From positions 1 through 23,207 of IMG/VR virus record IMGVR_UViG_3300030109_006445: 23,207 bases of DNA. The stretch is one strand, 5' to 3'. The translations under genes and the position numbers were made by a program. Positions 1,948 through 20,562 of this stretch are shown here, piece after piece. Positions within the stretch are counted from its first letter, which is position 1, and the number at the start of each line of letters is the position of its first letter. The DNA is from a virus. The notes below the pieces were generated by a model. That model did not search any database, was not told the origin of the DNA, and saw only the letters and a list, made by a program, of their open reading frames with translations.

Positions 1948-2351
1948 AAATAAATATCCTGTTTTTTAAATAATGATGCCGCAATCTCATCTTGCGGATA
2001 AACCTCTGCCAACTTTATATCATTAGCCTTGCAGAAATCAAGTTTCTTCTCGTCTCTTTTTAGTTGATCAGAATACTTAAAACGATTTTTATGGAAAAAT
2101 TTCACATACTTTGTATGTTGCGCCCCTTGCACTTCAACTGCAATTTTTTTGTTGGCGTTATAAAAATCTAAAGTTAATCTGCTTCCCACCACTCTAAACT
2201 CCTCAAAAACAATATCGTTTTTCCAATAGGGATAAAGAAATTTTTTGACAGCCGTTTGAAATTTGCTACGACTAGGTTTTTCCCAATCTATTAAGTATTT
2301 TTTTGCGTTTTTAAGGTTTCTTTCTTTACCATATCCATCAATAAACTTCAT
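1944..2351 (-). CDS. Small PD-(D/E)XK-type endonuclease, Vsr/DUF559-like
   Basis: This 135-residue protein has the layout of small restriction-endonuclease-like nucleases. A strand ends in TLDFYN (Asp62), followed by AVEVQG (Glu73-x-Gln75) and His79. A basic helix follows (RFKYSDQLKRDEKKLDF), then a final strand, IKLAEVYP. The Asp...Glu-x-Gln arrangement is a known variant of the D...ExK metal-binding core. This fold is seen in Vsr mismatch endonucleases and related Holliday-junction or repair nucleases. The gene is coupled by ATGA overlaps between uvsX and a small gene ahead of the helicase, so a role in recombination or repair of phage DNA is likely. Substrate is unknown; a resolvase, a nicking enzyme or a homing-type nuclease are all possible. 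Confidence 0.6.
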   Translation of the reverse strand: MKFIDGYGKERNLKNAKKYLIDWEKPSRSKFQTAVKKFLYPYWKNDIVFEEFRVVGSRLTLDFYNANKKIAVEVQGAQHTKYVKFFHKNRFKYSDQLKRDEKKLDFCKANDIKLAEVYPQDEIAASLFKKQDIYL

Positions 2352-3457
2352 GCTCCAATTTGTTCCCTAAAATATTTAATTAAGAATTTACACAATTCCT
2401 CATCCTGATCCAGAGTTTTAAATAAATTATTATCACCTTGAATTTGCTCAGGAAAGTTTAATTTGTTTTCTGTTAGTAGCTCGCAAAAATCCTCTGTTGG
2501 CTTAATCCATGCGCCTTTCTTTTCCACAAACTCCCACGCATAAAGCAAGTCTACAATTTCTTTTTCAATCCAGATGGAGTTGCCTCCTGACCGCTTATAT
2601 CTAACAGGATAAGTTAAACTAACATTAGATTTTTCATTAGGAGATTTGCATATTAAGACTTTTGCAAAATGCCCAATGATTGGATTCTTTTTTTCGTCAA
2701 TAGTTTTTAAGCTAGGGTTTTTCAGAATAAGATCTGATTTGTATCTAGGCTGAAATTGAATCACACTGTTAGCATAGTGCTGTAAAGCATACCCCCCTGT
2801 TGCTACAGACTGTCTAGGGGGTTCTTTGGAGTATTGATCTCTCATCTCTGACCTTACCTGACTAATAAAAATAGCCATATGTCCCCTCTTGCCTAAAGCA
2901 ATGCTGGTTTGTTTGCACCAAGTAGATGCAATGCTGGCTCCTGCGGCTATTTTGGCAAATTCATCAAACCCTTTAGATGCATCATTCTTAGCAACTAAGC
3001 CATCAACAGAATCTAATATAAAACAATATTTATGCTTATTCTTTTCATTGTCAATGAGTTGTTTGATGCAAGTCATCGCTGTTTCGTAGATATTAGTTTC
3101 CAAAACAAAGCAAGTGCCGTCTACCCATTCATCTGCTGACCACACAAATTTGACCCCAGACCTCTCCCTCACTTCTTTGCTTAATCTACCTTCAGCTTTG
3201 ATATATAAACCTCTAGGTTGTTCTATTGTATTTAGAAAGTTCTTCATAACCTCTAAAGCTTCAGAGGTTTTTCCACCTTCTGTCAAACCAGTAAAACGGT
3301 GTAACCCAGGTCCAAACCCTCCATTCATGCATAGGTCAAACTGAAGAGAGCCGCTAGAAACTTTGTAATCGCACTCGTCTTCAAAGTTGTAATGATCGCT
3401 TTTGTTTGATTTCAAGAAATTGCCTAGAATATCGTTTGGGTCTGGTCCTTCACTCAT
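2348..3457 (-). CDS. uvsX: UvsX/RecA-like recombinase
   Basis: This is a strand-exchange ATPase that would drive recombination-dependent replication and repair of phage DNA. The 369-residue product has Walker A GLTEGGKT at 57-64, Walker B FILDSVDG at 146-153, an IFISQVRSEMR strand matching the motif before DNA-binding loop 1, and a loop-2-like stretch TGGYALQHYANSVIQF. This layout and length are typical of UvsX-type phage recombinases rather than bacterial RecA. The ATG overlaps the preceding gene by eight bases, and its own stop is coupled by ATGA to the nuclease gene. It opens the replication/recombination segment that runs on to helicase and primase. Family assignment is strong; the symbol is given by analogy with T4. 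Confidence 0.93.
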   Translation of the reverse strand: MSEGPDPNDILGNFLKSNKSDHYNFEDECDYKVSSGSLQFDLCMNGGFGPGLHRFTGLTEGGKTSEALEVMKNFLNTIEQPRGLYIKAEGRLSKEVRERSGVKFVWSADEWVDGTCFVLETNIYETAMTCIKQLIDNEKNKHKYCFILDSVDGLVAKNDASKGFDEFAKIAAGASIASTWCKQTSIALGKRGHMAIFISQVRSEMRDQYSKEPPRQSVATGGYALQHYANSVIQFQPRYKSDLILKNPSLKTIDEKKNPIIGHFAKVLICKSPNEKSNVSLTYPVRYKRSGGNSIWIEKEIVDLLYAWEFVEKKGAWIKPTEDFCELLTENKLNFPEQIQGDNNLFKTLDQDEELCKFLIKYFREQIGA

Positions 3458-3797
3458 TTAAAAAATCTTTTATGGTTTTACTTTTAGGGGGGATAACTGC
3501 ATCCTCTCCAACTTTTTCTCCAATATGATAAAGCTTGTATTTGGAAAAATCAACTCTAAAATTAAATGCCCTAAACTTTTCATCCATTTTGGTTTTTAGT
3601 TTATCGCTTAATATATAAGCTAGCGAGTCAAATTTCTTGCTAAAACTTACAATATCCATAAATTCTAGAGAATACCGCTCACACAAAGTGTTAAGCATTT
3701 TCATTTCTCTAGCAAAAAAAGGTCTCCTTCCTTTATCGGGAACTTCCAATAAACGAAAAAGAATCTCTCTCTTGTTTGGACCTTTAGATTTTGCCAC
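3450..3797 (-). CDS. Basic protein of unknown function upstream of uvsX
   Basis: This is a 115-residue, lysine- and arginine-rich product that I do not recognise. It begins MAKSKGPNKREILFRLLEV and contains a region that looks helical (REMKMLNTLCERYSLEF), then a more hydrophobic segment near YKLYHIGEKVG. It has no membrane segment or signal peptide. The start is GTG, whose first base is the last base of the GMD stop codon. It overlaps uvsX by eight bases. Position and charge would suit a small DNA- or recombinase-associated protein, perhaps a UvsY-like mediator, but this is only context. It marks the boundary between the sugar cluster and the replication genes. Confidence 0.65.
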   Translation of the reverse strand: MAKSKGPNKREILFRLLEVPDKGRRPFFAREMKMLNTLCERYSLEFMDIVSFSKKFDSLAYILSDKLKTKMDEKFRAFNFRVDFSKYKLYHIGEKVGEDAVIPPKSKTIKDFLNE

Positions 3798-4843
3798 TAT
3801 GGATACATAACAGATGCAGTATCCTTGTCAACCATTTTTTTCACAAGCTGTATAAAACTACAGGTGGGTTGCCATCCTAGTTCTTGACGAGCTTTTGAAG
3901 AATCTCCGAGCAATAGATCTACTTCCGCTGGTCTATAAAAATCTTTATTAATCTCTACAAGACAATCATTTCCATGAAGATATTTTTCATCAATTCCTTC
4001 ACCCCTCCACTCAGATACCGATCTATGAAAACCAACAAAATTAAATGCTTCTATTACAAATTCTCTAATTGTGTGCGTCTCATCGGAAGACAAAACATAG
4101 TCTTTCTCTTTTCCTCGTTCTTGATTAAGCATTAACCAAACACCCTTAATAAAATCCTCTGCATCACTCCAGTCTCTTTGTGCATCTACATTTCCAAGTT
4201 GTAGAGGTTTAATGGTTTGTCCAGTTTCAAACTCTTTAAGAATTCTGGCTACATTTTTTGTTATTTTTCTTGTTACAAATTCTTCTCCTCTTCTCACTCC
4301 CTCATGGTTGAATAACCATCCTTGAATAGCATAAATATCATACGAATCTCTGTATACCTTAACTAAATGCCTAGCGGCACACTTGGATGCTCCATAAGGG
4401 CTTCTGGGGCGCAAAGGGTGCTTCTCCGACTGTGGAGATGTAACAACATCACCAAATTCTTCAGAGCTTCCTGCATTGTAATATCGACAATGTGGAGCAT
4501 GACGACGAATAGCCTCTAGTTGATGCAAAACAGCCATACAGTTAGTTTGCATATGATTGAAGGGCATATCCCAACTGCTGCCAACAAAAGAATTCGCTGC
4601 AAAATTGATAAAGTAGTCGGGCTTATGTTCCGATATAACTTTTTCTGTATTTTGCGGATCAGATACATCTAAATCAATAAGAAAAAATCTTGGGTTATTT
4701 TTTAAGTGTTGTATATTTTTATGATTTTCAACACTTAGTCTTCTTACACCCCCAATAATTGTGTGTTCCGTGTTTTTAAGAAGGTAATCAACCATCAGAC
4801 TGCCATCTTGACCTGTAACTCCTGTAACAATAATTTTTTTCAT
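3797..4843 (-). CDS. gmd: GDP-mannose 4,6-dehydratase
   Basis: This NADP-dependent short-chain dehydratase would convert GDP-D-mannose to GDP-4-keto-6-deoxy-D-mannose. That product is the branch point for GDP-fucose and GDP-perosamine, and genes for both branches lie in this cluster. The N-terminus has the cofactor motif GVTGQDGS. The catalytic region has AGSSEEFG (Ser-Ser-Glu) and the Tyr-x-x-x-Lys pair in SPYGASK. The stretch NHEGVRRGEEFVTRKI is a strong signature of this enzyme. I chose the ATG at 4843 (348 residues), one base after the previous stop. An in-frame ATG at 4912 would add 23 non-conserved residues that overlap the end of the fucose synthase gene. The 348-residue length is close to the family norm. 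The enzyme needs GDP-mannose, which no gene here makes, so it is presumably drawn from the host. Confidence 0.95.
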   Translation of the reverse strand: MKKIIVTGVTGQDGSLMVDYLLKNTEHTIIGGVRRLSVENHKNIQHLKNNPRFFLIDLDVSDPQNTEKVISEHKPDYFINFAANSFVGSSWDMPFNHMQTNCMAVLHQLEAIRRHAPHCRYYNAGSSEEFGDVVTSPQSEKHPLRPRSPYGASKCAARHLVKVYRDSYDIYAIQGWLFNHEGVRRGEEFVTRKITKNVARILKEFETGQTIKPLQLGNVDAQRDWSDAEDFIKGVWLMLNQERGKEKDYVLSSDETHTIREFVIEAFNFVGFHRSVSEWRGEGIDEKYLHGNDCLVEINKDFYRPAEVDLLLGDSSKARQELGWQPTCSFIQLVKKMVDKDTASVMYP

Positions 4844-4844
4844 A

Positions 4845-5753
4845 CTATGCAATATACCAGTTATATGTTTTCTCCAAACCTTCATCAAGAGAAGTCTCAG
4901 CTTCAAACCCAAACTTTTCTTTTGCTTTGGTTGTATCTAAACATCTACGTGGTTGACCATTTGGTTTGCTGGTATCGTATTTTATACCTCCCTTGTAATC
5001 AAATAACTTACTGATTTTAAGAACTAAATCTTTAATTGTAATTTCTGTTCCAGTTCCGATATTAATTGGATCAGGTTCATTGTAGTTTTCTAAAGCTAAA
5101 GCAATAGCATTAGCACAATCTCCAGCATATAAAAATTCCCTAGAAGCTGAACCATCACCCCAAACCTCAACAAAGGGATCTTTATTTTCTTTTGCCTTTT
5201 TGAATTTTTCAAAGAGAGCGGGGATGACATGCGAGGAATCAGGATTGAAGTTGTCATACTCTCCATACATATTTACAGGAATTAAGTGGAGGAAGTTGTC
5301 TCCATACTGTTTGTTGTAAGCTCGACACCCAACTAATAAACTCTTTTTTGCAATTCCATACGGAGCATTTGTTTCTTCGGGATAGCCATCCCAAATGTTT
5401 TCCTCTTTAAATGGAACCTCTGTAAACTTAGGGTAAGAACAAACGCTACCTAGAGTAATTAGTTTGTCTATTTTATGGTAATTCGACATAGACAAAATAT
5501 TTATGCTCATCATGGAGTTCTTGATGAAAAAATCTGCTGGGGCTTCTTTATTAGCTCCAATACCCCCACAAACTGCGGCTAGATGAATAATAATATCTGG
5601 AGAGTTTTCAACAATATATTTATGTAAATCTACTATATCTTGAACATTAAGCTCATAACTGGTTGGTGTTAGCAGATCATAATCATTTTCTAGTCTTTTA
5701 ACTAAATGTCGCCCAAGAAATCCTGTGGAGCCAGTTATCAATACTTTTTTCAT
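4845..5753 (-). CDS. fcl: GDP-L-fucose synthase (epimerase/reductase)
   Basis: This NADPH-dependent enzyme would epimerise and reduce GDP-4-keto-6-deoxymannose to GDP-L-fucose, directly using the product of the neighbouring dehydratase. The 302-residue product starts MKKVLITGSTGFLG (Rossmann glycine motif). It has the family-typical GSVCSYPKFTEVPFKEE region and the Tyr-x-x-x-Lys pair in APYGIAKKSLL. The length is standard for the family. I chose the ATG at 5753, which overlaps the upstream stop as ATGA. An ATG at 5768 would add five residues. Together with GMD this is the complete two-step de novo GDP-fucose pathway, and a GT10 fucosyltransferase lies two genes upstream in the operon. Confidence 0.93.
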   Translation of the reverse strand: MKKVLITGSTGFLGRHLVKRLENDYDLLTPTSYELNVQDIVDLHKYIVENSPDIIIHLAAVCGGIGANKEAPADFFIKNSMMSINILSMSNYHKIDKLITLGSVCSYPKFTEVPFKEENIWDGYPEETNAPYGIAKKSLLVGCRAYNKQYGDNFLHLIPVNMYGEYDNFNPDSSHVIPALFEKFKKAKENKDPFVEVWGDGSASREFLYAGDCANAIALALENYNEPDPINIGTGTEITIKDLVLKISKLFDYKGGIKYDTSKPNGQPRRCLDTTKAKEKFGFEAETSLDEGLEKTYNWYIA

Positions 5754-6646
5754 TGTGTTTTTATCCATTCTTTTAAATTAGTCTTTGGTTTCCACTGTAA
5801 AAGTTTTTTAGCTTTAGAGTTGTCAGCTAAACTTTCCCTTAATTCCCCTTCTCTAGCTTCAATAAAGGTGTAATCTCCTCCTATTTCTTGAGCTATTCCT
5901 AAAATGCTATAATTTACTCCCGTTCCTATGTTAATGACTTCTCCAGAAGCGTGGTTGCTTTGGGAGGCTAAAAAATTAGCATTAACAACATCTTTGACAT
6001 AAGTAAAGTCTCTACGCTGCAAGCCATCTCCCACTACTGTCATAGGCTTCCCTTCTTTTTTTTGTTTTAAAAATAAACCAATAACTGGTGCATATTGACC
6101 CCTTAATGGTTGACGTTCACCATATACATTGAAATATCTCAAAACCACAGTTTCCAAACCAAAAAGATTTGTATACATTTTACAAAATTCTTCTCCAGCC
6201 ACTTTGCTTACCGAATAAGGATTAAGACAATCAGTCATCATCCACTCTGCGTTTGGTATTTTATTAACAAGACCATAAGAAGCTGAAGTAGAACTATAAA
6301 CAACTCTTTTGACTCCTGCCTCCTTTGCACATTGCAATATTGTGCAAGTGCCTACTGTATTAACCTCAGTGGCTAATATAGGGTTATCTAAAGTAGGTTG
6401 AATTCTAGATTCTGCCGCTAAATGGAAAACTACATCTACTCCATCAAAAAGAGGTCTTATTGATTCATAATCGCAAATATCTTCTTGATAGTTTTCTGCT
6501 TCTTTGTTCCAGAAAAACTTATCGTGAGTTTCCGCAGATTCATTATCTATTACTTTTACATGCCACCCTGCGGAAAGTAGGTGATCCACAATATGTGAGC
6601 CAATGAACCCCGCGCCTCCTGTTACAATTGCTTTTTTTGTTACCAT
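5750..6646 (-). CDS. NAD-dependent nucleotide-sugar epimerase/dehydratase
   Basis: This is an extended short-chain dehydrogenase/reductase of the UDP-glucose 4-epimerase type, acting on a nucleotide sugar. The 298-residue product has the cofactor motif GGAGFIGSH near the N-terminus, VYSSTSASYG (catalytic Ser/Thr), the Tyr-x-x-x-Lys pair in NPYSVSKVAGEEF, and VLRYFNVYGERQ, which is a hallmark of GalE/WbpP-like enzymes. The substrate cannot be read from the sequence; a UDP-hexose or UDP-N-acetylhexosamine 4-epimerase is most likely. It could supply a third sugar donor for the cluster beside GDP-fucose and the predicted perosamine derivative. Its stop is coupled by ATGA to the fucose synthase gene, and it overlaps the previous gene by seven bases. 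Confidence 0.85.
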   Translation of the reverse strand: MVTKKAIVTGGAGFIGSHIVDHLLSAGWHVKVIDNESAETHDKFFWNKEAENYQEDICDYESIRPLFDGVDVVFHLAAESRIQPTLDNPILATEVNTVGTCTILQCAKEAGVKRVVYSSTSASYGLVNKIPNAEWMMTDCLNPYSVSKVAGEEFCKMYTNLFGLETVVLRYFNVYGERQPLRGQYAPVIGLFLKQKKEGKPMTVVGDGLQRRDFTYVKDVVNANFLASQSNHASGEVINIGTGVNYSILGIAQEIGGDYTFIEAREGELRESLADNSKAKKLLQWKPKTNLKEWIKTQ

Positions 6647-7290
6647 ATTCTTTCGTCGTTTTCATCCACAGGTTCTCCTATGAAATATTTTGGATTGCCA
6701 TTACTGTCAATGCCTTCTTTTCTTTTAGTCGGAAAAGGTTTTTTTTCAAAAAATTCATCATGCACACAAGAGGTATCTTTTACTATTGGATATATTTTTT
6801 CTCTTAAAAAGTTTTGATCTACCTGCCAAAAATTACCTTTAGAATATTCTGATATCAAAGGTTTCATTTCTGAAATTGACCCTGATTTTGCACCCCACAT
6901 GCCTCCAAGTATTTCTGTTCCATGTGCTGGGTGATCTCTCATAATGTGAAATCCTTTATCACTAGCAAGCCATTCGTCTACAGCAGTTTTTTCTCTATCT
7001 GACAAACGACTATCAGTATCCCTAGATATCATTACCTCTACATCACTATCAGAAGCAGGTAAAAACCTCCAAAACATACCTCCCCAATCACCTGATTCGT
7101 TCATAATGAAAATTTCTGTATTATCTTTTTCATACAAGCTTGTAATTATTTTTATGGGAGTAGATTTTCCAGCATAATAACGACAGGTCCAGTCTGGATA
7201 TATTTTTTTAGCTAGGTCTGCATTTTTTAATGCACCTACAGTATATCGGGGGTTGTCACCCCATAAACAAAAGCTTATAATCTTTTTCAT
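6640..7290 (-). CDS. Putative GT-A-like glycosyltransferase
   Basis: This 216-residue protein is probably a sugar transferase. It begins with a strand and loop (KKIISFCLWGDNPRYTVGAL) like the nucleotide-binding start of GT-A enzymes. A VMISRDTDSRLS segment, with RDTDSR at 90-95, has the Asp-x-Asp pattern used to bind the metal and nucleotide sugar. A later MRDHPAHGTEILGGMWG stretch is also conserved-looking. Similar small proteins occur in surface-polysaccharide loci, usually without a named family. No membrane segment is visible. ATGA coupling to the GT10 gene upstream places it in the same glycan operon. Donor and acceptor are unknown, and the assignment rests on the DxD motif and context. 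Confidence 0.55.
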   Translation of the reverse strand: MKKIISFCLWGDNPRYTVGALKNADLAKKIYPDWTCRYYAGKSTPIKIITSLYEKDNTEIFIMNESGDWGGMFWRFLPASDSDVEVMISRDTDSRLSDREKTAVDEWLASDKGFHIMRDHPAHGTEILGGMWGAKSGSISEMKPLISEYSKGNFWQVDQNFLREKIYPIVKDTSCVHDEFFEKKPFPTKRKEGIDSNGNPKYFIGEPVDENDERIW

Positions 7291-8228
7291 TGTTGGAAGT
7301 TTTTAATTAGTTTTTCTAAATAGTTTAGAAGATTATATTTTGTAAAATAATCATTTTTGCATTCTTTTATTGCTTCCAGCCTCCAAGAAATGGGGCTATC
7401 CATTATTTTTTTTAATTCTTTAATTACAGTGTTTGATTCTGGCTCAAAGGTGATAAAGGCATCTTTGTTATATGCATCTTTAATATTCAAGCAGCCATAA
7501 TAAACGGGGATACAATTGTTAAGAAACACATCAAAAAACTTTTCTGAAATATATAAATCCTCCGAACTGTTTTCCATACAAATAGAATACTTGTAATCTT
7601 TTAGTGCGGTAGTTTTTAGTGGAGGAGCACCCTTATATCTTGAATCGTTTATTGACCATCCTTTCCCATAAATATCAATATCTAAATCTGAATTTAAAAT
7701 ATTTAATAATAAATTTTCTCTAATATAATAATTAGACAATTCATGTTGTGACATACCTCCTAAAGTTCCGTGATTGGCAACTATAAAAGACATTTTTTTA
7801 GGATAATTGGGACAATCTATATTGTCTGGAAAAGAGTCATCATTTAAATACTCTTCCACCGTGGGACCATACAAATTATCTGTATGTGAATTATTCCTAG
7901 AGTCATGAGAAAAAAGAAAGGGGTATGTATAATCCACATTATCTCCTTTAATTTTTTTATCACAAGTAATTATATATTTGCAGTAATCATTAAGATTTTT
8001 AAGTGAATTAGGACTCCATGTCGGCTCCATTGTTACGGCTATATTTTTCTCGCGGGGAGAAGTATGCATTTCTGAGCTATGGTTTAGCACTATCAAATAG
8101 TCATAATCGTTGCCATGTGTTAACTCAAAACACTCAGGCGATTCTCCCCAGTTATATAGAACACGGGCATTGTTGGTCTCTGCGGAGTCCCAAGGAGAAG
8201 AAAATTTTAATTTTATTTTTTCCGACAT
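7287..8228 (-). CDS. Alpha-1,3/1,4-fucosyltransferase family (GT10)
   Basis: This enzyme would transfer L-fucose from GDP-fucose to a glycan acceptor. The C-terminal half carries the GT10 donor-binding signature: DYKYSICMENSSEDLYISEK followed by FFDVFLNNCIPVYYG, spanning residues 211-245. The YISEK tract is the counterpart of the YVTEK tract of known fucosyltransferases. The N-terminal half has an AVTMEPTWSP stretch and a Rossmann-like layout. At 313 residues it is close to bacterial members, and I see no membrane anchor. Its ATG overlaps the previous stop as TAATG. The presence of gmd and fcl a few genes downstream makes GDP-fucose the expected donor, so donor and transferase are encoded together. 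The acceptor is unknown. Confidence 0.85.
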   Translation of the reverse strand: MSEKIKLKFSSPWDSAETNNARVLYNWGESPECFELTHGNDYDYLIVLNHSSEMHTSPREKNIAVTMEPTWSPNSLKNLNDYCKYIITCDKKIKGDNVDYTYPFLFSHDSRNNSHTDNLYGPTVEEYLNDDSFPDNIDCPNYPKKMSFIVANHGTLGGMSQHELSNYYIRENLLLNILNSDLDIDIYGKGWSINDSRYKGAPPLKTTALKDYKYSICMENSSEDLYISEKFFDVFLNNCIPVYYGCLNIKDAYNKDAFITFEPESNTVIKELKKIMDSPISWRLEAIKECKNDYFTKYNLLNYLEKLIKNFQQ

Positions 8229-8914
8229 TAATAAGAGTCTCTTAGTGCAGATTTGAAATGATTTAAGTTTTCTTCATGAGCAGCTAAAACGCTACCGTGT
8301 TTTGTTAATGCTTTTCCCCAATATACTTGAAAATCCATTTTCTCAAAAGCAGTATTAAATTCCCAATCTAAAGGTTGGGTAATTTCGTTTGACTGAAGAT
8401 AGTTGTTTAGTTTTTTTATTGTGTCTTTTGTATAAAGGACCGTGCATAAACCATTGGTCGCTGGATGGTCTTTTTTGCTAAAAATATCTCTATTATCTCC
8501 ATATCTAATCCAAGCCTCACCCAAAAAAACACAATCGTATTTTACATTGTGGTCATTACAGAGCTGATTCATTTTTTGAACGTAACTTACTGGATTTTCT
8601 TTAAATATCACATCGTCTTCCAATATGAAAAAATGCTCGCCTTGAGTAGATTCAGCTATTTTTTGAACAGCATTTTTATATTTCATGCATAAAGACATTT
8701 CAGCTTTAAGCATTTCCCTGTCGAATTTTTTTTCAAAAACCTCTAAATCAAAGTTTTTATTTATAATTTCATCAGATAGATCTTCTTGATCAAAATCTTC
8801 TACAAACTCATATTCAATTTCTGGAAACCATTTATCCATTTGTTGAAGCATATGAGCTTTCCTTGCTTCCAGCTTTGTATAATGAATAATAAAAATTTTA
8901 TCTATGCCGTTCAT
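8228..8914 (-). CDS. Glycosyltransferase family 25 (LPS-type)
   Basis: This is a 228-residue transferase of the family that includes LOS/LPS galactosyltransferases and collagen galactosyltransferases. It starts GIDKIFIIHYTKLEARKAHM, matching the family pattern of a hydrophobic strand followed by an Arg-rich segment. It has EHFFILEDDVIF with the metal-binding acidic triad at 99-101. A LDWEFNTAFEKMDFQVYW region follows. No signal peptide or membrane segment is seen, so it is probably cytoplasmic. It is coupled by ATGA to the exostosin-like gene upstream and by TAATG to the GT10 gene downstream. The sugar transferred is unknown; galactose is common in the family. Confidence 0.78.
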   Translation of the reverse strand: MNGIDKIFIIHYTKLEARKAHMLQQMDKWFPEIEYEFVEDFDQEDLSDEIINKNFDLEVFEKKFDREMLKAEMSLCMKYKNAVQKIAESTQGEHFFILEDDVIFKENPVSYVQKMNQLCNDHNVKYDCVFLGEAWIRYGDNRDIFSKKDHPATNGLCTVLYTKDTIKKLNNYLQSNEITQPLDWEFNTAFEKMDFQVYWGKALTKHGSVLAAHEENLNHFKSALRDSY

Positions 8915-9732
8915 TTAAAAAATTTAAAGTTAAGAGAAGAAACTTTGAAGTCTTTCCAAATACTAGCATAAAAGTCTTCACATAAATCAAGATCATGGAA
9001 TTCAGACCAATCATCTAAAATGATTATCGGGATACCTAATTTTTTAAATCTCTCTGCACCATGCCATCTTTTGACAATAGGAATACTCTTCATGTATAAA
9101 GCTTCCCAAGTTTTATGACAGTCTTTGCCATTACCATCTGGCGAAATAGTAAAGTAAGAATTAGATATATTTCTTAAATAATTATCCTGAGTGCTGTTAA
9201 CAAAATCATCATGGTCTTTTATAGAAGCCGCATTTGGGTATTCTGTGTCGGGCTCTATACCTAATTTTTTGTAACAATCTAGTCTAGCTGGGGGGTTTGT
9301 AGATATATTGAAATTAGCATAGTATAACATGTCTTTCTCATTATCTTCCTTCATGATTTTTTGAAACCTTTCTTGATTTCCATGAGACCATTTTGGATTA
9401 GCTATGCCTATTGGTATCGGAGAAACTTTTGAATGTTCACATAAAAGGTTTTGAGTATACCAATGTTTCATGCGAGGAAAAAACTTAACAACTGCATTTA
9501 CATATTCTTCTGTAAAATTTATATCAGAGTTATGAGTCACTAAAGTAAAAGGTTCCTCTTTCATTAGCTTAGAGTCTTTTAATAATTGAAGAAACTCTGG
9601 CTTACAAAAAACAAAACCCTTATAACCTTCTTGATCTTCTTTGAAATCAAAAACTGGTGTTCTTTCGTCAATATAGTTGCTTGCTCTAGTGCTACATTGA
9701 TGTTTAAAATATGTTCCGCATATAAAGTTCAC
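8911..9732 (-). CDS. Exostosin/GT47-like glycosyltransferase
   Basis: This 273-residue product resembles the C-terminal catalytic half of exostosin-type transferases. Residues 191-245 contain NSYFTISPDGNGKDCHKTWE, then ALYMKSIPIV and IPIIILDDWSEF. This matches the family pattern of a Ser-Pro-x-Gly loop, an Asp-Cys-x-(Arg/Lys)-x-Trp-Glu motif and a final IPVV...DW strand. The N-terminal half is less conserved and has a THNSD loop. The start is GTG, overlapping the aminotransferase stop as GTGA. No membrane anchor is present, unlike eukaryotic exostosins. It lies between the aminotransferase and the GT25 gene, so it should add one residue of the glycan made by this cluster. Donor and linkage are unknown. 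Confidence 0.68.
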   Translation of the reverse strand: MNFICGTYFKHQCSTRASNYIDERTPVFDFKEDQEGYKGFVFCKPEFLQLLKDSKLMKEEPFTLVTHNSDINFTEEYVNAVVKFFPRMKHWYTQNLLCEHSKVSPIPIGIANPKWSHGNQERFQKIMKEDNEKDMLYYANFNISTNPPARLDCYKKLGIEPDTEYPNAASIKDHDDFVNSTQDNYLRNISNSYFTISPDGNGKDCHKTWEALYMKSIPIVKRWHGAERFKKLGIPIIILDDWSEFHDLDLCEDFYASIWKDFKVSSLNFKFFK

Positions 9733-10820
9733 GGTTTATAGTTCATTTGGTGGTTGGCTATTATGGAGCATATTTTTTTAATTTCAACATCTTTAAGCTC
9801 GGGATAAGAGGGGAGCATAAGCACCTCCTTATTTATTTTTGTCGAGACCTCTACGTCTCCCTTTATTTTTAAGTGATTGTGATAGGTGTGAGGATAAAAC
9901 ATTCTCCTAGTCTCCACTCGATTAGTGTTTAAATCTTCCTCAAGCTCATTTAGAGAAAAATATTTAGGGGAAAATCTAGCCGCAATCATCCACATAGAAT
10001 GGGTTGTATCTTTCTCTATATGTTGATTGGTAACCCCATCAATCTTGTCTAGCTCCTTCCTATAGAGATCAAATACTCTTTTTTTATTCTCTTTAATTTT
10101 ATCTATTTCTTCTAATTGACCTAAAAGAATAGCAGCCTGTATGTTGGTCATTCTGTAATTGTAACCCAGTTCATCATGAATATATCTTTTGTGGGTTTGT
10201 CCTTGGCATTTTATTTTACTGATGTAGTGGAAAAGAGAACTGTCGTTGGTTAAAAAAGCTCCACCTTCGCCAGTTGTTATGTTCTTATTGCCAAAAAAAG
10301 ATAATGAAGAACATAAAGATTTTGAACCAGATGGATTACCTTCATATTCTCCAAAAAAGCCCTCACAATTATCTTCTATTATAGGTATGTTAAATTTTTC
10401 TTTTAGTTTAATCACATTAGCGATATTGCCGAGGTTGTGAACTACCATAAGAGCGGAGTTTTCTTCTGGAATAAATGAATTATAATTTGAATTCCAGGTC
10501 TTGTCACAAAGGTCTACAGACTCTATATCCCACCCAACATTATCATATAATAAACAATTATATGCTGCTACATAACAAGCAGAAGGAACATAAACTTTTT
10601 TTATTTCGGGGTATTTTTTGGCTAAGGCTTTAGCTGTTAAGTGAGTTGCAGAAGTTCCATTATTGGTAAGGATACAATGTTTGACCTTATTAATTTCTGC
10701 CAATTTTTCTTCTGCTAATGAGGTGTATTTACCCTGCGAAGAAATCCAATTAGAAGATATGGCTTCATTTGAATAATTTATGCTAGCTTTAGGTATAAAC
10801 GGTTTATATACAGGTATCAT
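9729..10820 (-). CDS. DegT/DnrJ aminotransferase, GDP-perosamine synthase-like
   Basis: This PLP-dependent enzyme would transaminate a nucleotide-linked 4-keto sugar. The protein begins MIPVYKPFIPK and has SNWISSQGKYT, TNNGTSATH at 52-60, the PLP-contacting Asp150 in PIIEDNCEGFFG, and the Schiff-base Lys179 in SFFGNKNITTGEGG. These are hallmark segments of perosamine synthases (Per/RfbE) within the sugar aminotransferase family. Its expected substrate, GDP-4-keto-6-deoxymannose, is made by the gmd product in the same operon, and glutamate would be the amino donor. The 363-residue length is typical. ATGA coupling at the start and GTGA coupling at the stop place it in the cluster. A related specificity, such as GDP-4-keto-colitose chemistry or a dTDP-4-keto sugar, is not excluded, but no dTDP-sugar genes are present. 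Confidence 0.85.
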   Translation of the reverse strand: MIPVYKPFIPKASINYSNEAISSNWISSQGKYTSLAEEKLAEINKVKHCILTNNGTSATHLTAKALAKKYPEIKKVYVPSACYVAAYNCLLYDNVGWDIESVDLCDKTWNSNYNSFIPEENSALMVVHNLGNIANVIKLKEKFNIPIIEDNCEGFFGEYEGNPSGSKSLCSSLSFFGNKNITTGEGGAFLTNDSSLFHYISKIKCQGQTHKRYIHDELGYNYRMTNIQAAILLGQLEEIDKIKENKKRVFDLYRKELDKIDGVTNQHIEKDTTHSMWMIAARFSPKYFSLNELEEDLNTNRVETRRMFYPHTYHNHLKIKGDVEVSTKINKEVLMLPSYPELKDVEIKKICSIIANHQMNYKP

Positions 10821-12037
10821 TTTTTTTCAGCTAAAATCCAGTATCGAGGAGAGGGGCTAGAATCTAAAAATTTTATAGAAGTAAATTCTAAATCAGATAA
10901 AGTCTTAACAATTAATTCAGAAGATATTGGTCTATTACTCGTATCAAAGGGTATATATTCCAACATAATCCACTTGCAAGCCATAGAAGCCCACTCTGTA
11001 ATAATCTGTTCCAAAGGCTTGTTCTTCCCATGAACATGATGAATTACAGCAGGAACTATGACCGCTTCACTTTTAAATCTCTCTAAACAAGAGTGGTAAC
11101 AACCCTCCTGACCCCAAGACTTGATATTTAAGAAGTCGATGTAAGCAAAGTTACAATTTAACTCCATTTCTTGAGATTTTTTATTAGATGATGAAATCAT
11201 TTTTTGGCTGTAATCAAACCCTACAACAGTTGCACCGTGTAAGGCGGCAAAAAATGAATATAAACCATACGAACACCCAATGTCTAACAAAGTAGAGGGG
11301 GATTTTTCCTTTATAACCTCACATAAAGCTGGGCGATGCTTATAGGCATAAGATATTAGTTCATCTTTGCAATCAAGAGATTTTTTTTGAACGGGATAGT
11401 CGTCCCATACTTCACTTTTTTCAATTAATTGTATTTCTTCTAAAATATTTTTAGCTCTTTCTAGATAAGTTGCTGTATCTTCAATAGATTCAATAGCACT
11501 TAATTTAGATGAAATTATATCAAGATTAGAAATCCAGCTTTGAGGGTGGATTGGAGTATGGTCTGTGCCACCCATATTTGGTTGCCCATATATATGACCT
11601 AATATAGTTCCTTTAATACAGGGGAGGTTTATATTTTTATGAAAATCCCCAATATCTAATAAAATAGGCTTTCCGTTTTGGAGCACAACATTCCACATGT
11701 GAGATTTAATATGATAGTTATTTTGACACAAATAACTACTCACATCGCATAGGAATAGAAGGGTTTCTTTCCTGTCATGGTTAGACATTTCGGGCCAATG
11801 AATAACATGGTCGATGTAATCTACCTCTACTACATTAAAGTTTTTAGCAGGTGAGAACTCACCCTCCATGGTTGCAGATTTAACCTTCGGCCAAAAAATA
11901 TTACTCTTGTTTTTATATGTGTCAGAAAAAAAGAAATTATGATCACCTTCAGGTATATACCTGTAAGCTTTTCTGTTATCGTCATCTAACAATACGTGAC
12001 CTCTGCTTCTGGCAATACATGCATCAGGGATTCTCAT
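10817..12037 (-). CDS. Kinase-like domain fused to SAM-dependent methyltransferase
   Basis: This 406-residue protein appears to have two domains. Residues about 20-135 look like a degenerate protein-kinase-like fold: HIKSHMWN at 109-116 aligns with the HxDxxxxN catalytic loop, and LLDIGDF near 126-132 aligns with the metal-binding DxG. The catalytic Asp position holds Lys111, so this half may bind rather than phosphorylate. The C-terminal half is a class I methyltransferase, with LLDIGCSYGLYSFFA from 250 and VVGFDYSQKM matching SAM-binding motifs I and II. Related fusions are known in nodulation- and polysaccharide-associated methyltransferases such as NoeA-like proteins. It likely methylates a sugar or glycan intermediate. 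It is coupled to the aminotransferase by ATGA. Substrate is unknown. Confidence 0.72.
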   Translation of the reverse strand: MRIPDACIARSRGHVLLDDDNRKAYRYIPEGDHNFFFSDTYKNKSNIFWPKVKSATMEGEFSPAKNFNVVEVDYIDHVIHWPEMSNHDRKETLLFLCDVSSYLCQNNYHIKSHMWNVVLQNGKPILLDIGDFHKNINLPCIKGTILGHIYGQPNMGGTDHTPIHPQSWISNLDIISSKLSAIESIEDTATYLERAKNILEEIQLIEKSEVWDDYPVQKKSLDCKDELISYAYKHRPALCEVIKEKSPSTLLDIGCSYGLYSFFAALHGATVVGFDYSQKMISSSNKKSQEMELNCNFAYIDFLNIKSWGQEGCYHSCLERFKSEAVIVPAVIHHVHGKNKPLEQIITEWASMACKWIMLEYIPFDTSNRPISSELIVKTLSDLEFTSIKFLDSSPSPRYWILAEKK

Positions 12038-12038
12038 T

Positions 12039-12722
12039 TCATTTTTTTTCTCCGATTAAAATATAAGTTCCATAGTGATAATCGGGATTTCTTCCCTCAT
12101 CTCTTTTTAATACCTTATATAGTTTTTTATTATATTGAAAAGATAAAAATTTATCTAAGTATTGGTGGGTTAACCTTATAGGGTGCATAGGATCTAGTTG
12201 ATTCCACCCTTTATCGGTGGAGTCTTTTAAATCTTGACCCAATATTAAATGCCCTCCCTTTTTTAAACATTTAAAAATATTGTTTAACAAAGCTTCCACA
12301 TCATAAACATGGTCTAAAACATTGTTACAAATTGCAATATCAACAGAATTTGAATCTATTTCTTTTTCATCACAAGCTTCAAAAGGCTTGCTCAAAAATT
12401 TAGATTTGTTTTCATGTCTTTTTACAGATTTACCTAAAGAGATATAATTATCCAGAAGAGGATCGTTTAAAATAAAATTTTTTGCTGGTTTTTTTAAACT
12501 GGAATTTACTATTTCTAAATTTTTTGCATAGGGACCACATCCCACTTCTAATATTGTCTCAGCATCTAGCTCGTTAAAAAAAGTGTAATTATCGAACTTA
12601 GAAGCCCACCAGTTATTCCAATCCTCTCCATCTTGCGCTTCACGTTCCCAAGTTGAAAGCTCACAGCTTTGAGCCTCTATCCAAACTTGTTCTGTAGCTT
12701 TTACAGTTGAGTCATCTTTCAT
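12039..12722 (-). CDS. SAM-dependent methyltransferase (type 11)
   Basis: This 227-residue class I methyltransferase has motif I ILEVGCGPYAKNLE near residue 58, a DIAICNNVLDHVYD strand matching motif IV, and a later CLKKGGHLILGQDL segment matching the motif V/VI region. It probably methylates a small molecule or sugar of the glycan pathway; O-methylation of 6-deoxysugars is common in such loci. The start and stop are each one base from the neighbouring genes, so it is cotranscribed with the fused methyltransferase downstream and the DUF4254-like gene upstream. The N-terminal 50 residues, rich in Trp and acidic residues, are unfamiliar. The exact substrate cannot be read. Confidence 0.82.
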   Translation of the reverse strand: MKDDSTVKATEQVWIEAQSCELSTWEREAQDGEDWNNWWASKFDNYTFFNELDAETILEVGCGPYAKNLEIVNSSLKKPAKNFILNDPLLDNYISLGKSVKRHENKSKFLSKPFEACDEKEIDSNSVDIAICNNVLDHVYDVEALLNNIFKCLKKGGHLILGQDLKDSTDKGWNQLDPMHPIRLTHQYLDKFLSFQYNKKLYKVLKRDEGRNPDYHYGTYILIGEKK

Positions 12723-12723
12723 G

Positions 12724-13032
12724 CTAATAGGTTTTATGTTTTTTTTGTATGTATCCCTGTGAAGCTATATCTTTGCCCGAAACACCGTCTTTAATAATCT
12801 CTACTATCTTCTCATCAATCTCATCAATAATGTTATTTCTTTGGACATTTAAATCAGCTACCTTTTTAAAACAATTAAAGATATCTTCTTGATCTTTTTC
12901 TTCAGATAAATAACGTTGTTTAAATTCTGCAAAGTCCATGTGCCTGATCTCATAATAAATCTCTTGATTATTCCACATTTTTAAGTCGGCTGTAATCAAT
13001 TTATCAACTAAACTTCCTATAGTATCACTCAT
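12724..13032 (-). CDS. Small DUF4254-like protein of glycan loci
   Basis: This 102-residue, apparently all-helical protein starts TIGSLVDKLITADLKMWNN and has LNVQRNNIIDEIDEKI near residues 64-79. Both stretches match what I recall of DUF4254-type proteins: a Gly-Ser-Leu-x-Asp-Lys-Leu start and a final Gln-Arg-Asn...Glu-Ile-Asp-Glu helix. Such proteins are often encoded beside glycosyltransferases and sugar-modifying enzymes, but their biochemical role is not established. It overlaps the formyltransferase gene by eight bases and lies one base from the methyltransferase gene, so it belongs to the cluster. Family match is from memory of the pattern and should be treated as moderate. Confidence 0.55.
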   Translation of the reverse strand: MSDTIGSLVDKLITADLKMWNNQEIYYEIRHMDFAEFKQRYLSEEKDQEDIFNCFKKVADLNVQRNNIIDEIDEKIVEIIKDGVSGKDIASQGYIQKKHKTY

Positions 13033-13669
13033 AATTATTTTTGTTATATTTTAATTCATACTCATCATCACAAATTTTTATAGAGAAACCTTTGTGTGGT
13101 GGGCAATAAAAAGCTCTTATTTTTTTATCCAAAGAGTGTTTGCTTTCCTTAGATATATCCATAATATCCACAACTCGTTCTTTTTCTAACATCTCCCGCG
13201 AATAGTAGTTGCCTCTTTTTTTTTGAGGCTTTCTTGACTTGTTTAAAAAATGTTTTTTATTATTTAAAAATTTATTTAATTCTTTATGAAGATATGTATG
13301 AGATAGGCTTCTCAACGAATCTACTGTGTGATTTGGACCTATATTAAAATTAGTCTGTGAAATAATATCTCCTTCATCAAATTTTTCATTCACATAATGA
13401 CAAGTAACCCCCCATTTTGATTCTTCATTTAGTATCGCAAAATTGTAAACAGCTAACCCTTTATATTCTGGTAAAGGTGCTGGGTGAAAGTTTATGCATC
13501 CATACTTAGGACCGCTTATTAAAGGCTCTTTTATCCTAAAATTATAACAGTAAGAAATTACAAGATCTATATCACGATTACATTCTGTTATTTTTTCTGT
13601 AGAAACATTTTTAAACTTGTTCAGTATTTTTTTGTCACAGTTTCTGTTTGTTAGCAAAAGAATATTCAT
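13025..13669 (-). CDS. Sugar N-formyltransferase
   Basis: This is a member of the methionyl-tRNA formyltransferase-like fold that would transfer a formyl group from N10-formyltetrahydrofolate to an amino group. The catalytic triad is visible: Asn60 and His62 in CINFHPAPLPEYKG, and Asp101 in FDEGDIISQ. The product is 214 residues, short for tRNA formyltransferase and closer to sugar N-formyltransferases such as Brucella WbkC. The cluster also has gmd and a perosamine-synthase-like gene, so the likely reaction is GDP-perosamine to GDP-N-formylperosamine. I chose ATG at 13669, which overlaps the upstream stop as ATGA. An ATG at 13681 would add four residues. The last 80 residues are lysine-rich and less conserved. 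The fold is clear; the substrate is inferred from neighbours. Confidence 0.85.
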   Translation of the reverse strand: MNILLLTNRNCDKKILNKFKNVSTEKITECNRDIDLVISYCYNFRIKEPLISGPKYGCINFHPAPLPEYKGLAVYNFAILNEESKWGVTCHYVNEKFDEGDIISQTNFNIGPNHTVDSLRSLSHTYLHKELNKFLNNKKHFLNKSRKPQKKRGNYYSREMLEKERVVDIMDISKESKHSLDKKIRAFYCPPHKGFSIKICDDEYELKYNKNNYE

Positions 13670-14346
13670 ACAGTAATCCATTTTTTTCGACTAGAAAGAA
13701 TATTAGGTCGCACACTATTGTGGTGAAACAGTGAAATATTTTTAGTATCTAAATGTTCGGAATAACATCTTATACAACTTTCTATGCAATGAAATTCTTT
13801 TGCATTTTCAATGATTTTGCCATAGTGAAAAACACTCTCGGTGGGATCGTTTCTAATTATTTTGTAGTCGCTTTCAACATTAATTATAAATCCTCTTTCA
13901 GCATCATCATGAACGAAAATATAGTCTTCGCCTGAGGCGTTCAACTTTTCTAGAACTCTCTGTTCTTCTTTATCGTCTCTCTCAATTCTAAATCCATCAA
14001 ATCTTTCTTGATAAGGAACTCCAGCTATTTCATAAAAATATACATCACACGTTTTGTTTTCAGGTATATTACAAAATCCAACTCTTAAAAATTTGTCATG
14101 CTGAGATATATTTTCACTTACAAATTTATTTACGCAATGCAACTCTTTGCTGGGGTCATTATCAACAGGTATTAATTTAATGTTATCTTGAGTATAGAGA
14201 ATGTTTAAGTTGCTAAGATACTTCTCTTTACAAAATAAAAATATTTTTTCAAATTTACCTGTTTTTAAAAAGCTTAAAACCATACCATTTAAGCAGATAT
14301 GATCTCCCAAACCAAGATGGTGATGAAGGAATAAATTTTGTTTCAT
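13666..14346 (-). CDS. Putative GT-B/GT9-like glycosyltransferase
   Basis: This 226-residue protein begins NLFLHHHLGLGDHICLNGMV. That glycine-rich start resembles the N-terminus of heptosyltransferase-like (GT9) and related GT-B enzymes found in polysaccharide loci. The second half has YIFVHDDAERGF, a nucleotide-sugar-domain-like strand and loop, and AKEFHCIESCIRCYSEHL, similar to the donor-site region in which a His or Ser follows a strand. It is shorter than a full GT-B enzyme of about 350 residues, so it may be a compact or degenerate member. Its ATG follows directly on the GT4 stop, and its own stop overlaps the formyltransferase start as ATGA. Donor, acceptor and even activity are uncertain. 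Confidence 0.5.
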   Translation of the reverse strand: MKQNLFLHHHLGLGDHICLNGMVLSFLKTGKFEKIFLFCKEKYLSNLNILYTQDNIKLIPVDNDPSKELHCVNKFVSENISQHDKFLRVGFCNIPENKTCDVYFYEIAGVPYQERFDGFRIERDDKEEQRVLEKLNASGEDYIFVHDDAERGFIINVESDYKIIRNDPTESVFHYGKIIENAKEFHCIESCIRCYSEHLDTKNISLFHHNSVRPNILSSRKKWITV

Positions 14347-15198
14347 TTATTTTTCTACTTTTTCCCAAAATTTAGATGCTGCATTCTCACAGCGATTTTT
14401 AAATTTATCATAGCCCACTTCTTTAAAGTCTAAATAAGATCCAATGATAGAAGGGTTACCTAATATATCTTCTACTCCGCACAAAATAGCCTCTCCAACC
14501 ATTCTACAAAAAGGTTCGTTTACATTTGGGGAGTGAAACACTGAATTACATTTTTGAAAAATTTCAGCTATCCCAGAAGGATCGACCCATTTTGGGTGGT
14601 AAGTTATGTTTTCATACTTATCAAAATAAGAAGAGGGGACGACATTAGAACCTCCAAAAATATCTATTTTTCTATTGGGATTATTTTTAGAAAAATTAAT
14701 TAGGTTTTGAATTCCTTTTTGTGGGTGAACATAACCACAATAAACAACATCATATTCTTTTTTTAGATCAGACTTCTTAAAAATTGAAGTATCTAATGGA
14801 TCAGGAATAATTTCTATATTCTTAAAATAGTCTCCATATAATTCTTTAAAAAAATTATAGTGGAAGTCTGTTAAGAAAAATGTTTTTTTACAATTAGAAA
14901 ATAACTGTTCCCTATCTTCACTGCTTAAGTAATGGCAAGAATCATGTTCTAGTCTGACTGAATTGGGAAGTTTTTTAATTAAATTAAATCTTTCGGGAGA
15001 AGTTTTGTATATAAACTCCAAGTTGGAATTTATCACCAAATCATAGGATACAAAAAGATCTGTTATTGGAGAAGCTTGATGGTGTTCCTTTATAGTGTGA
15101 CCTCGTTTTTTGCCTTCCTCAATAATAATTGAGTTGCTAATTTGAGCCCCACCAACAGCTTGCTCTAAAGTAAAATCAGAAATGACTAAAACATTCAT
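14347..15198 (-). CDS. Glycosyltransferase family 4-like
   Basis: This is a retaining GT-B glycosyltransferase and the first gene of the glycan cluster in transcription order. The product (283 residues from ATG 15198) has the N-terminal acceptor-side motif DFTLEQAVGGAQISNS. The donor-domain segment YDVVYCGYVHPQKGIQNLI is typical of GT4. NEPFCRMVGEAILCG contains the Glu-x7-Glu pair that contacts the nucleotide sugar. A GTG directly before the ATG (15201) is an alternative start. No ribosome binding site is evident; a small inverted repeat covers the start codons and a TATAAT lies just upstream. It is separated from the preceding gene by about 30 bases. Donor sugar is unknown. Confidence 0.82.
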   Translation of the reverse strand: MNVLVISDFTLEQAVGGAQISNSIIIEEGKKRGHTIKEHHQASPITDLFVSYDLVINSNLEFIYKTSPERFNLIKKLPNSVRLEHDSCHYLSSEDREQLFSNCKKTFFLTDFHYNFFKELYGDYFKNIEIIPDPLDTSIFKKSDLKKEYDVVYCGYVHPQKGIQNLINFSKNNPNRKIDIFGGSNVVPSSYFDKYENITYHPKWVDPSGIAEIFQKCNSVFHSPNVNEPFCRMVGEAILCGVEDILGNPSIIGSYLDFKEVGYDKFKNRCENAASKFWEKVEK

Positions 15199-15216
15199 CA
15201 CACAGAATAATGTGAT
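15197..15216. repeat. Short inverted repeat over the start of the first cluster gene
   Basis: ATCACA and TGTGAT form a 6-base-pair stem around an 8-base spacer. In a leftward transcript the 3' arm would cover the GTG/ATG start region of the GT4 gene. A minus-strand TATAAT (15220-15215) overlaps the outer arm. The repeat could be an operator or a start-masking RNA hairpin, or it could be chance. Confidence 0.35.
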
Positions 15217-19128: not shown

Positions 19129-19483
19129 TTCAATCACAGCAGCAGCATATCTAGTAAAAGATCCTGAGGTTCGTCAAACTAGCAATGGTAAAAAAGTTGC
19201 AAATCTTAGGGTTGGTATTTCAACATCAAACGCTAAAACAAAATGTTTTATTGATATTGAATACTGGGACAAGACTGCTGAAATTGCAGAAAAATACCTC
19301 AGTAAAGGAAGAGAATTTATTGTTCAAGGAGAACTCTGTATGTCTTCTTGGGAAAAGGATGGTAAAAACTTTAGCAAATATCACATCAGAGGAAAAGATT
19401 TGCAATTTTTGAGTTCTGCTAAAAAATCCGACTCTGGTGGGGACAACAAATCATCCGAAGAAACTGACGATGTTCCTTTTTAA
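19121..19483 (+). CDS. ssb: Single-stranded DNA-binding protein, bacterial type
   Basis: This OB-fold protein would coat single-stranded DNA at the fork. Residues 1-105 match the SSB fold: an N-terminal strand MFNSITAAAYLVKDPEVRQT, then KKVANLRVGIST, DIEYWDKTAEIAEKYLSKGR and FIVQGELCMSSWEKDG. The remainder is a Ser/Gly-rich linker ending ETDDVPF, the acidic tip that in bacterial SSBs binds partner proteins such as helicases, primase and repair enzymes. This is a cellular-type SSB rather than T4 gp32, though the other replication genes here are T4-like. At 120 residues it is shorter than E. coli SSB (about 178), mainly in the linker. AAGGA five bases before the ATG is a good ribosome binding site. 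Confidence 0.92.
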   Translation: MFNSITAAAYLVKDPEVRQTSNGKKVANLRVGISTSNAKTKCFIDIEYWDKTAEIAEKYLSKGREFIVQGELCMSSWEKDGKNFSKYHIRGKDLQFLSSAKKSDSGGDNKSSEETDDVPF

Positions 19484-20562
19484 TGAAATTAATATTAGAA
19501 GCACCATTTAATAGCTTAAGTTTTGGCAATGTTGCTCTAAACATTGTTAGAGAGTTGCATAGAAAAAATGTCTCCTTGTCTATTTTTCCATCTGGAGATC
19601 TAGACTTTAAGGCTTATGAAATAGCTGATGATTTAAAAAAATACATCGAAGATTCCATAAATAATAGATGGAAAAATATTTCAGCAGAAACCCCCTCTCT
19701 TAAACTGTGGCATTTAAATGGAAGTGAGAATAGGAAAACAAAAGATCAATATCTTTTTACTTTCTATGAATGCAATCAACCTACAGAAGTAGAAACTAAA
19801 ATTTGTGGTTTACAAGACAAAACGTTCTTTAGCTCAAGAGAGGCAAAGAAACATTTTACGGATAAAGGGCTTACTAATTGTAAGTTTATCCCTTTGGGCT
19901 TTGACGAAGATTTTAAAACCACAGACAAAGAATATTTAAAAGATACTATCCATTTTGGTTTAATGGGTAAGTTTGAAAAAAGAAAACATACTCAAAAAAT
20001 AATCAAAACTTGGGTCAAGAAATACGGTAACAATCCAAAATATCAACTTTCTTGTTGTATTTCTAATCCGTTCTTTAAGCCTGAACAAATGCAAGGTCTA
20101 TGGAATGACACTCTTGAAGGAGTCAATTATAATAATTTAAATATTATTCCCCATTTGCAAAGAAACAGTGAGGTTAATGAATTATTAAACGCAATTGATA
20201 TTGATCTAACTGGTTTGTCGGGTGGCGAGGGTTGGAACTTGCCAGCATTCAATGCAACATGTTTAGGTAAGTGGAGCGTGGTTTTGAATGCAACATCACA
20301 CAAAGACTGGGCTACAGAAGAGAACTCTATTTTAATTGAGCCTTCTGGAGAAATGCCAGCCGAAGATGGGGTGTTCTTTAAAAAAGACTCCCTCTTTAAT
20401 CAGGGAACATTTTATACTTGGTCTGAAGATCAGGCTTTAGAAGCTATGGAGAAAGCTGAGTCTAAGGTGGGTCAAATTAACACTGAGGGTGTCAAGATGG
20501 GGGACACTATGACATATTCTAAAACTGTTGATTCTATTTTAGACTGTATATACAGCAGTTGA
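19483..20562 (+). CDS. GT-B glycosyltransferase, separate from the main cluster
   Basis: This 359-residue protein has the two-domain GT-B look. The N-terminal half starts KLILEAPFNSLSFGNVALNI, an acceptor-domain strand followed by a glycine loop. The C-terminal donor half begins near FGLMGKFEKRKHTQKIIKTW and contains LSGGEGWNLPAFNATCLG, a donor-site motif like those of GT4 enzymes. No membrane anchor is visible. The ATG overlaps the SSB stop as TAATG, so it is translated with SSB, although its function should lie in glycan synthesis. It is the only sugar gene on the rightward strand and lies about 4.3 kb from the main cluster. It could act with that cluster or independently, for example on DNA or virion protein. 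Confidence 0.75.
   Translation: MKLILEAPFNSLSFGNVALNIVRELHRKNVSLSIFPSGDLDFKAYEIADDLKKYIEDSINNRWKNISAETPSLKLWHLNGSENRKTKDQYLFTFYECNQPTEVETKICGLQDKTFFSSREAKKHFTDKGLTNCKFIPLGFDEDFKTTDKEYLKDTIHFGLMGKFEKRKHTQKIIKTWVKKYGNNPKYQLSCCISNPFFKPEQMQGLWNDTLEGVNYNNLNIIPHLQRNSEVNELLNAIDIDLTGLSGGEGWNLPAFNATCLGKWSVVLNATSHKDWATEENSILIEPSGEMPAEDGVFFKKDSLFNQGTFYTWSEDQALEAMEKAESKVGQINTEGVKMGDTMTYSKTVDSILDCIYSS

Follow-up and report, generated by a model that had tools for sequence, protein, structure and literature searches.

This analysis concerns a cluster of sugar genes in a 23,207-base virus fragment, IMG/VR record IMGVR_UViG_3300030109_006445; the window is this whole stretch, and genes beyond the fragment lie outside its view. 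The sugar genes form one minus-strand run (3797-15201), from gmd through a GT-B glycosyltransferase gene (Table 1), flanked at one end by genes for a UvsX-like recombinase and a DnaB-like helicase and at the other by those for NrdA/NrdB. The DnaB-like helicase, UvsX-like recombinase, NrdA/NrdB, SSB and sigma factor genes in the flanks, together with a weak match to a minor tail protein, support the assignment of the window to a phage, as does the type of the record (virus fragment). An original prediction, made from the sequence alone, had placed a perosamine-synthase-like aminotransferase and a small formyltransferase at 9729-13669, in the same cluster as gmd. Both genes are intact minus-strand open frames, and gmd lies in the same run. 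The gene positions stand, but the formyltransferase end does not: position 13669 is the second in-frame Met of a frame that begins at 13681 and is thus four codons longer. The quoted span also holds three more genes (for two methyltransferase-domain proteins and a 102-amino-acid (aa) protein), and gmd and fcl fall outside its coordinates, within the same minus-strand cluster.

Table 1. Predicted genes of the sugar cluster in the window
Predicted product	Position	Strand	Supporting matches and remarks
Gmd, GDP-mannose 4,6-dehydratase	3797-4843	-	PF16363 E 6e-101; TIGR01472 316 bits; 37% identity to E. coli Gmd
Fcl, GDP-L-fucose synthase	4845-5768	-	NF047922 294 bits; 39% identity to E. coli WcaG
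Nucleotide-sugar epimerase-like enzyme of the short-chain dehydrogenase/reductase (SDR) family	5750-6646	-	Pfam/NCBIfam; SSTSASYG motif read from sequence
orf216, conserved cluster protein	6640-7290	-	no Pfam match; homologues in 31/80 loci
GT10-type fucosyltransferase	7287-8228	-	PF00852 E 4e-10
GT25-type glycosyltransferase	8228-8914	-	PF01755 E 7e-8
Exostosin/RXYLT1-like glycosyltransferase	8911-9732	-	PF24785 E 4e-7
Perosamine-synthase-like pyridoxal phosphate (PLP) aminotransferase, 363 aa	9729-10820	-	PF01041 (DegT/DnrJ/EryC1) E 1e-68
Class I methyltransferase with long N-terminal extension	10817-12037	-	PF13847 E 3e-9; homologues in 8/80 loci
Class I methyltransferase	12039-12722	-	PF13489 E 9e-10
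102-aa helical companion protein	12724-13032	-	module hallmark; weak DUF4254
WbkC-like sugar N-formyltransferase, 218 aa	13025-13681	-	PF00551 (Formyl_trans_N) E 9e-19; N64/H66/D102
orf226, conserved cluster protein	13666-14346	-	GT9-like motif by eye; no Pfam match; homologues in 44/80 loci
GT-B glycosyltransferase (GT4-like)	14347-15201	-	PF00534 E 2e-5

Gmd, taken to start at the ATG at 4843 and not with the listed TTG frame at 4912, keeps the YxxxK motif in an alignment with E. coli Gmd, with S-S-E replacing T-S-E, and Fcl keeps the active-site Ser, Cys, Tyr, Lys and His of WcaG. Their family scores lie under the cut-offs, which are 415 bits for the TIGR01472 equivalog and 500 bits for NF047922. 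The third SDR lacks the dehydratase Asp/Glu; its motif excludes a second 4,6-dehydratase, and since the acid pair is missing, this enzyme is probably a 4-epimerase. The GT10 enzyme is a plausible and likely user of GDP-fucose.

The aminotransferase, in which SFFGNKNITTGEGG is present, is a member of the DegT/DnrJ/EryC1 family with an internal-aldimine lysine (the PLP lysine K179, in SFFGNK) and not the histidine of ColD/RfbH. Among solved structures, phmmer ranked the Caulobacter perosamine synthetase (Per) first (167 bits, E 5e-48), above 7b0m (144 bits), QdtB (92 bits) and dTDP-sugar transaminase and ArnB-type entries (62-63 bits); a profile of 17 phage homologues searched against the PDB also scored Per highest (234 bits), followed by 7b0m (219), QdtB (138) and a named dTDP-sugar transaminase (135). 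Identity was 36% to E. coli O157 Per and approximately 25% to WecE and ArnB. In a 76-row tree, the enzyme falls inside a phage-only clade of 53 (support 100/100) with a long stem, and this clade joins the Per proteins of O157, Rickettsiales and Caulobacter (95/87 and 96/92), apart from WecE/ArnB and from the ColD/RfbH-like 3-dehydrases. The same Per grouping was recovered with lower support (87/78) in a reduced tree, where a WecE/ArnB grouping without Per was rejected modestly (p-AU 0.038, with a small reference set). In addition, gmd immediately precedes the best plasmid homologues of both kinds (those in Rickettsiales Ac37b and E. coli pCP53), and it was found on 7 of the 13 first relatives and on 24 of 40 larger contigs (one being a split match). 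A short-peptide-pattern scan of 84,980 bacterial and archaeal genomes for close relatives returned two distant archaeal matches and no cellular donor. These sequence comparisons support a putative GDP-perosamine synthase of the Per/RfbE type, as had been predicted: Per is the best solved relative, the phage clade stands beside bacterial Per, and the clustering with dTDP-sugar enzymes that would have spoken against the assignment was not found with the few dTDP/UDP-sugar references in the trees.

The catalytic N64, H66 and D102 of the formyltransferase, originally noted as an intact Asn-His-Asp triad, are in place and invariant across 11 phage homologues. WbkC was the best match in both profile searches, with and without ArnA-like members; when three such members of the first profile were excluded and the eight closest phage homologues retained, WbkC scored 112 bits, against 82 each for ArnA and methionyl-tRNA formyltransferase (Fmt), a 30-bit lead over the next family. 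The AlphaFold (AF2) model (predicted local distance difference test, pLDDT, 88.7; predicted template modelling score, pTM, 0.84) retrieved WbkC first in Foldseek, with 4-N-formyltransferases in nearly all top rows, and VIA-align matched it to WbkC with Z 20.8 and a root-mean-square deviation of 2.2-2.3 over 203-204 residues at 24% identity. The predicted fold indicates a sugar 4-N-formyltransferase, and sequence and context point to GDP-perosamine as its probable substrate.

These genes belong to a module that recurs in dozens of other uncultured phages. With the 102-aa gene as query, 117 related stretches were found in IMG/VR and 80 loci were kept, which comprise 54 distinct 102-aa proteins at 97% identity. 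The module consists of an N-acyltransferase, the 102-aa protein and Per or a phage-clade aminotransferase, in this order, often with gmd and fcl. An aminotransferase lies within approximately 6 kb in 51 of the 54 loci (42 of the window clade, 9 of the O157 Per type, both together in none), and aminotransferase, Gmd and Fcl occur together in 18. Directly upstream of the 102-aa gene, an N-acyltransferase was found in at least 39 of the 54 loci, namely a GNAT acetyltransferase in 21, a formyltransferase in 8 and a hexapeptide/PglD-type acetyltransferase in at least 10; among 54 randomly drawn other genes from the same loci, acyltransferases numbered at most 3 (Fisher p 2.5e-13 for enrichment in the slot, the loci being not fully independent). 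In one distinct locus, represented by two contigs (L068/L069), orf226, a formyltransferase 42% identical to that of the window, the 102-aa protein and a Per with 61% identity to that of E. coli O157 follow one another. That formyl- and acetyltransferases replace each other in a single slot beside Per adds independent context for the role of the formyltransferase.

The 102-aa gene overlaps the 3' end of the formyltransferase gene by 8 bases. Across 58 sequences, 26 of its 102 positions are invariant, and all 58 end in KTY. In the AF2 model, the protein folds into a helical hairpin (pLDDT 89) and ends in a disordered tail, the last block of which has a pLDDT of 47; no fold match at E<=0.001 was found with Foldseek in the PDB or BFVD, and profile searches found no PDB relative. 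The best DUF4254 match (E 1.4e-4) reached 22.1 bits, under the Pfam gathering cut-off of 27. Among 50,697 phage records, the protein occurs in a single one, that of an uncultured phage of 636 kb, and it was on no plasmid searched; it is almost absent from isolate phages and plasmids and is a near-constant companion of Per-type genes in many uncultured phages. That an acyltransferase and a Per-type enzyme are nearly always its neighbors suggests that it is a partner in N-acylperosamine formation or transfer. A more speculative proposal, which we regard as possible but doubtful, is that it is an essential dedicated part, acting as an adaptor or perhaps as the protein acceptor itself, of an N-acylperosamine glycosylation system specific to phages, in which GNAT, hexapeptide and formyl caps are swapped, varying the virion or the infected-cell surface.

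Taken together, our analyses suggest that the phage encodes a GDP-sugar branch-point pathway giving GDP-fucose and GDP-N-formylperosamine, a reading to which we assign a probability of roughly three in four. Gmd would convert host GDP-mannose into GDP-4-keto-6-deoxymannose, a share of which Fcl would turn into GDP-L-fucose for the GT10 enzyme. The aminotransferase would transfer an amino group, probably from glutamate, to C4 via PLP-Lys179, yielding GDP-perosamine, and the formyltransferase, with Asn64/His66/Asp102 and N10-formyl-tetrahydrofolate, would cap this amine to give GDP-N-formylperosamine. One of the other glycosyltransferases of the cluster may then build a fucose/N-formylperosamine-containing glycan, and the 102-aa protein may serve as a partner dedicated to the N-acylperosamine step or to the transfer. 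The Brucella-type route from GDP-mannose to GDP-N-formylperosamine, as originally proposed, is supported by gene identities, trees, profiles and context, and the proposed second branch through fcl by the kept catalytic residues of Gmd and Fcl and by the 18 loci that carry all three genes. What is read from sequence comprises the gene identities, the kept catalytic residues, the fold as predicted and a recurrent module whose acyltransferases are exchangeable; from these we infer the substrates and products, the glycosyltransferase assignment, what the 102-aa protein does and the acceptor, which may be a virion protein or a host surface glycan. A cytosolic acceptor (e.g., a virion protein) would be slightly favored over host lipopolysaccharide, given that no export genes are in view in this fragment: no flippase, polymerase, ABC exporter or lipid-carrier transferase was seen among the families matched in the window.

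Several observations weigh against this pathway. No manA, manB or manC is found in the window. Gmd was not detected on 16 of the 40 large contigs, one 140-kb formyltransferase contig is without it, and L110 (7591-9620) departs from the Gmd pattern, as a dTDP-glucose 4,6-dehydratase-like gene comes after its window-type aminotransferase. The phage aminotransferase clade has a stem of approximately 1.5 changes per site and approximately 29-37% identity to bacterial Per, which leaves room for a change of substrate within it, and few dTDP/UDP-sugar references are included in the trees. The aminotransferase scores well below the NCBIfam cut-offs, with no Per model seen in NCBIfam, and the score of 7b0m, a sugar aminotransferase for which no substrate is named, comes close to that of Per. 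Finally, VIA-align does not separate WbkC from the dTDP-Qui4N formyltransferases, which are tied with it (Z 19.9-21.3), above ArnA and Fmt (Z approximately 18-19).

This structural tie, together with a formyltransferase that is shorter than WbkC and 20-24% identical to it, speaks for a rival reading in which the aminotransferase makes GDP-perosamine and the formyltransferase acts on some other amino compound, such as a host dTDP- or UDP-4-amino sugar. We consider this unlikely, as WbkC tops both profile searches, the formyltransferase gene immediately precedes that of the 102-aa protein and is mostly one gene away from that of Per or of the phage-clade aminotransferase, and acetyltransferases occupy its slot in sister loci. 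Moreover, a strong dTDP-glucose dehydratase is present on only one of the nine formyltransferase-bearing contigs, whereas gmd is on seven (one being a split match). An alternative hypothesis, somewhat harder to sustain, is that the aminotransferase itself acts on a dTDP- or UDP-4-keto-6-deoxy sugar, as enzymes of the RffA/WecE, LegC, PseC or VioA type do, and that the amino sugar is not perosamine. The dehydratase-like neighbor in L110 and the long stem of the phage clade are compatible with such a change, and LegC is the top-scoring NCBIfam match of the aminotransferase. However, LegC is also the top match of phage enzymes that are 61-64% identical to O157 Per; the match is therefore uninformative, and a LegC identity was rejected. 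The aminotransferase trees and the PDB ranking favor Per, and Gmd is the sole dehydratase-type SDR in the window, the third SDR having no dehydratase motif. Very improbable is a PurN (purine-pathway) or Met-tRNA formyltransferase relative unconnected with the sugar genes, since the PHROG match to a cyanophage PurN family, the single-sequence best PDB match to an Fmt and the PurN-annotated genes carried by phages of cyanobacteria are outweighed by PurN matches that span the catalytic core only (WbkC aligns over residues 2-212), by an eight-homologue profile with WbkC far above Fmt and PurN, and by the place of the gene within a sugar operon. Methionyl-tRNA formyltransferase has a C-terminal tRNA-binding domain and approximately 310 aa in all; the 218-aa phage protein stops soon after the PPxxG region and is without this domain. 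Of the two substrates first named as grounds for doubt, tRNA is disfavored by both domain content and profile scores, while for another amino sugar the profile favors WbkC and VIA-align leaves a tie.

Among the remaining genes of the cluster, the GT-B enzyme is a candidate perosaminyltransferase, and orf226 usually lies upstream of the gene for the 102-aa protein, at a distance of one to a few genes. The N-terminal part (approximately 230 aa) of the methyltransferase with the long extension has no Pfam match and shows an LLDIGDFHK motif by eye. Related sugar genes were also observed in other loci. L015 (6586-10326), found via the formyltransferase, carries an RfbH-like 3-dehydrase, a formyltransferase and a second DegT aminotransferase, and is a different amino or dideoxy sugar set belonging to another system. 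ColD-like 3-dehydratase genes in L049 (7871-9034) and L089 (446-1630) lie in clusters that also contain Gmd and Per-type genes, which suggests a third use of the same GDP-keto sugar. In the flanks of the window, the UvsX-like protein (2348-3457) had no match at 1e-5 among the 50,697 phage records, so this phage lineage appears to be poorly represented by isolates; nor did the isolate collection contain a cultured relative. The adjoining gene (1944-2351) encodes a 135-aa protein that is nuclease-like by eye (VEVQGAQH...KLDFCKANDIKL) and has no Pfam match. A 359-aa protein adjoining SSB (19483-20562), glycosyltransferase-like by eye and likewise without a Pfam match, is kept beside the SSB and sigma genes in L009 and L010, apart from the main cluster, and an Hsp20 small heat-shock protein gene (PF00011 E 1e-10) is carried at 20596-20931.

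The wider module and its small 102-aa protein are more interesting than the pathway alone. If our reading is correct, phages make and cap a 4-amino-6-deoxy sugar known from bacterial O-antigens, and the acyl cap is exchanged among relatives in one gene slot, in a manner similar to surface antigen variation. The 102-aa protein could serve as a gene marker to find N-acylperosamine modules in uncultured phages and to ask what the glycans decorate.

N-formylperosamine is the sugar that coats Brucella, and the GDP-N-formylperosamine route of the Brucella O-polysaccharide (Gmd, Per and WbkC) uses the same three enzyme types. Unlike in Brucella, the route in the window is phage-borne and joined to Fcl/GT10 and the 102-aa protein, its aminotransferase stands in a separate divergent clade, its formyltransferase is approximately 40 residues shorter, and the exporter and GDP-mannose supply genes are absent from the window. 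The O-antigen cluster of E. coli O157, which holds gmd, fcl/wcaG and per together, shares the two-branch use of GDP-4-keto-6-deoxymannose by Fcl and Per; however, it has a flippase and polymerase, neither of which was seen in the window, and its perosamine carries an N-acetyl instead of an N-formyl group.

Viral copies of gmd, fcl and rfbE are known from earlier reports. Cyanophage S-SCSM1 carries gmd and a GDP-fucose synthase gene with fucosyltransferases (PMC9602691), and gmd, fcl and rfbE appear in the viral gene table of a Chlorobium single-cell study (PMC8226683); in the parts of these two reports that were examined, neither a formyltransferase step nor the 102-aa companion was seen. A viral branch in GDP-sugar metabolism has also been discussed, with a perosamine synthetase that is microbial (PMC5513705). 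In the literature searched, from which most subscription journals were excluded, neither an N-formylperosamine step in a phage nor the 102-aa companion was found to be described. The giant viruses, which have N-acetylviosamine (Mimivirus) and perhaps perosamine (Marseilleviridae), similarly encode a 4-amino-4,6-dideoxy sugar that is N-acylated for their own glycans (PMC9614988, PMC12866637). They differ in their eukaryotic hosts, in the use of UDP-viosamine or a perosamine inferred from mass spectra, and in a cap that is acetyl, whereas that predicted for the phage is formyl.

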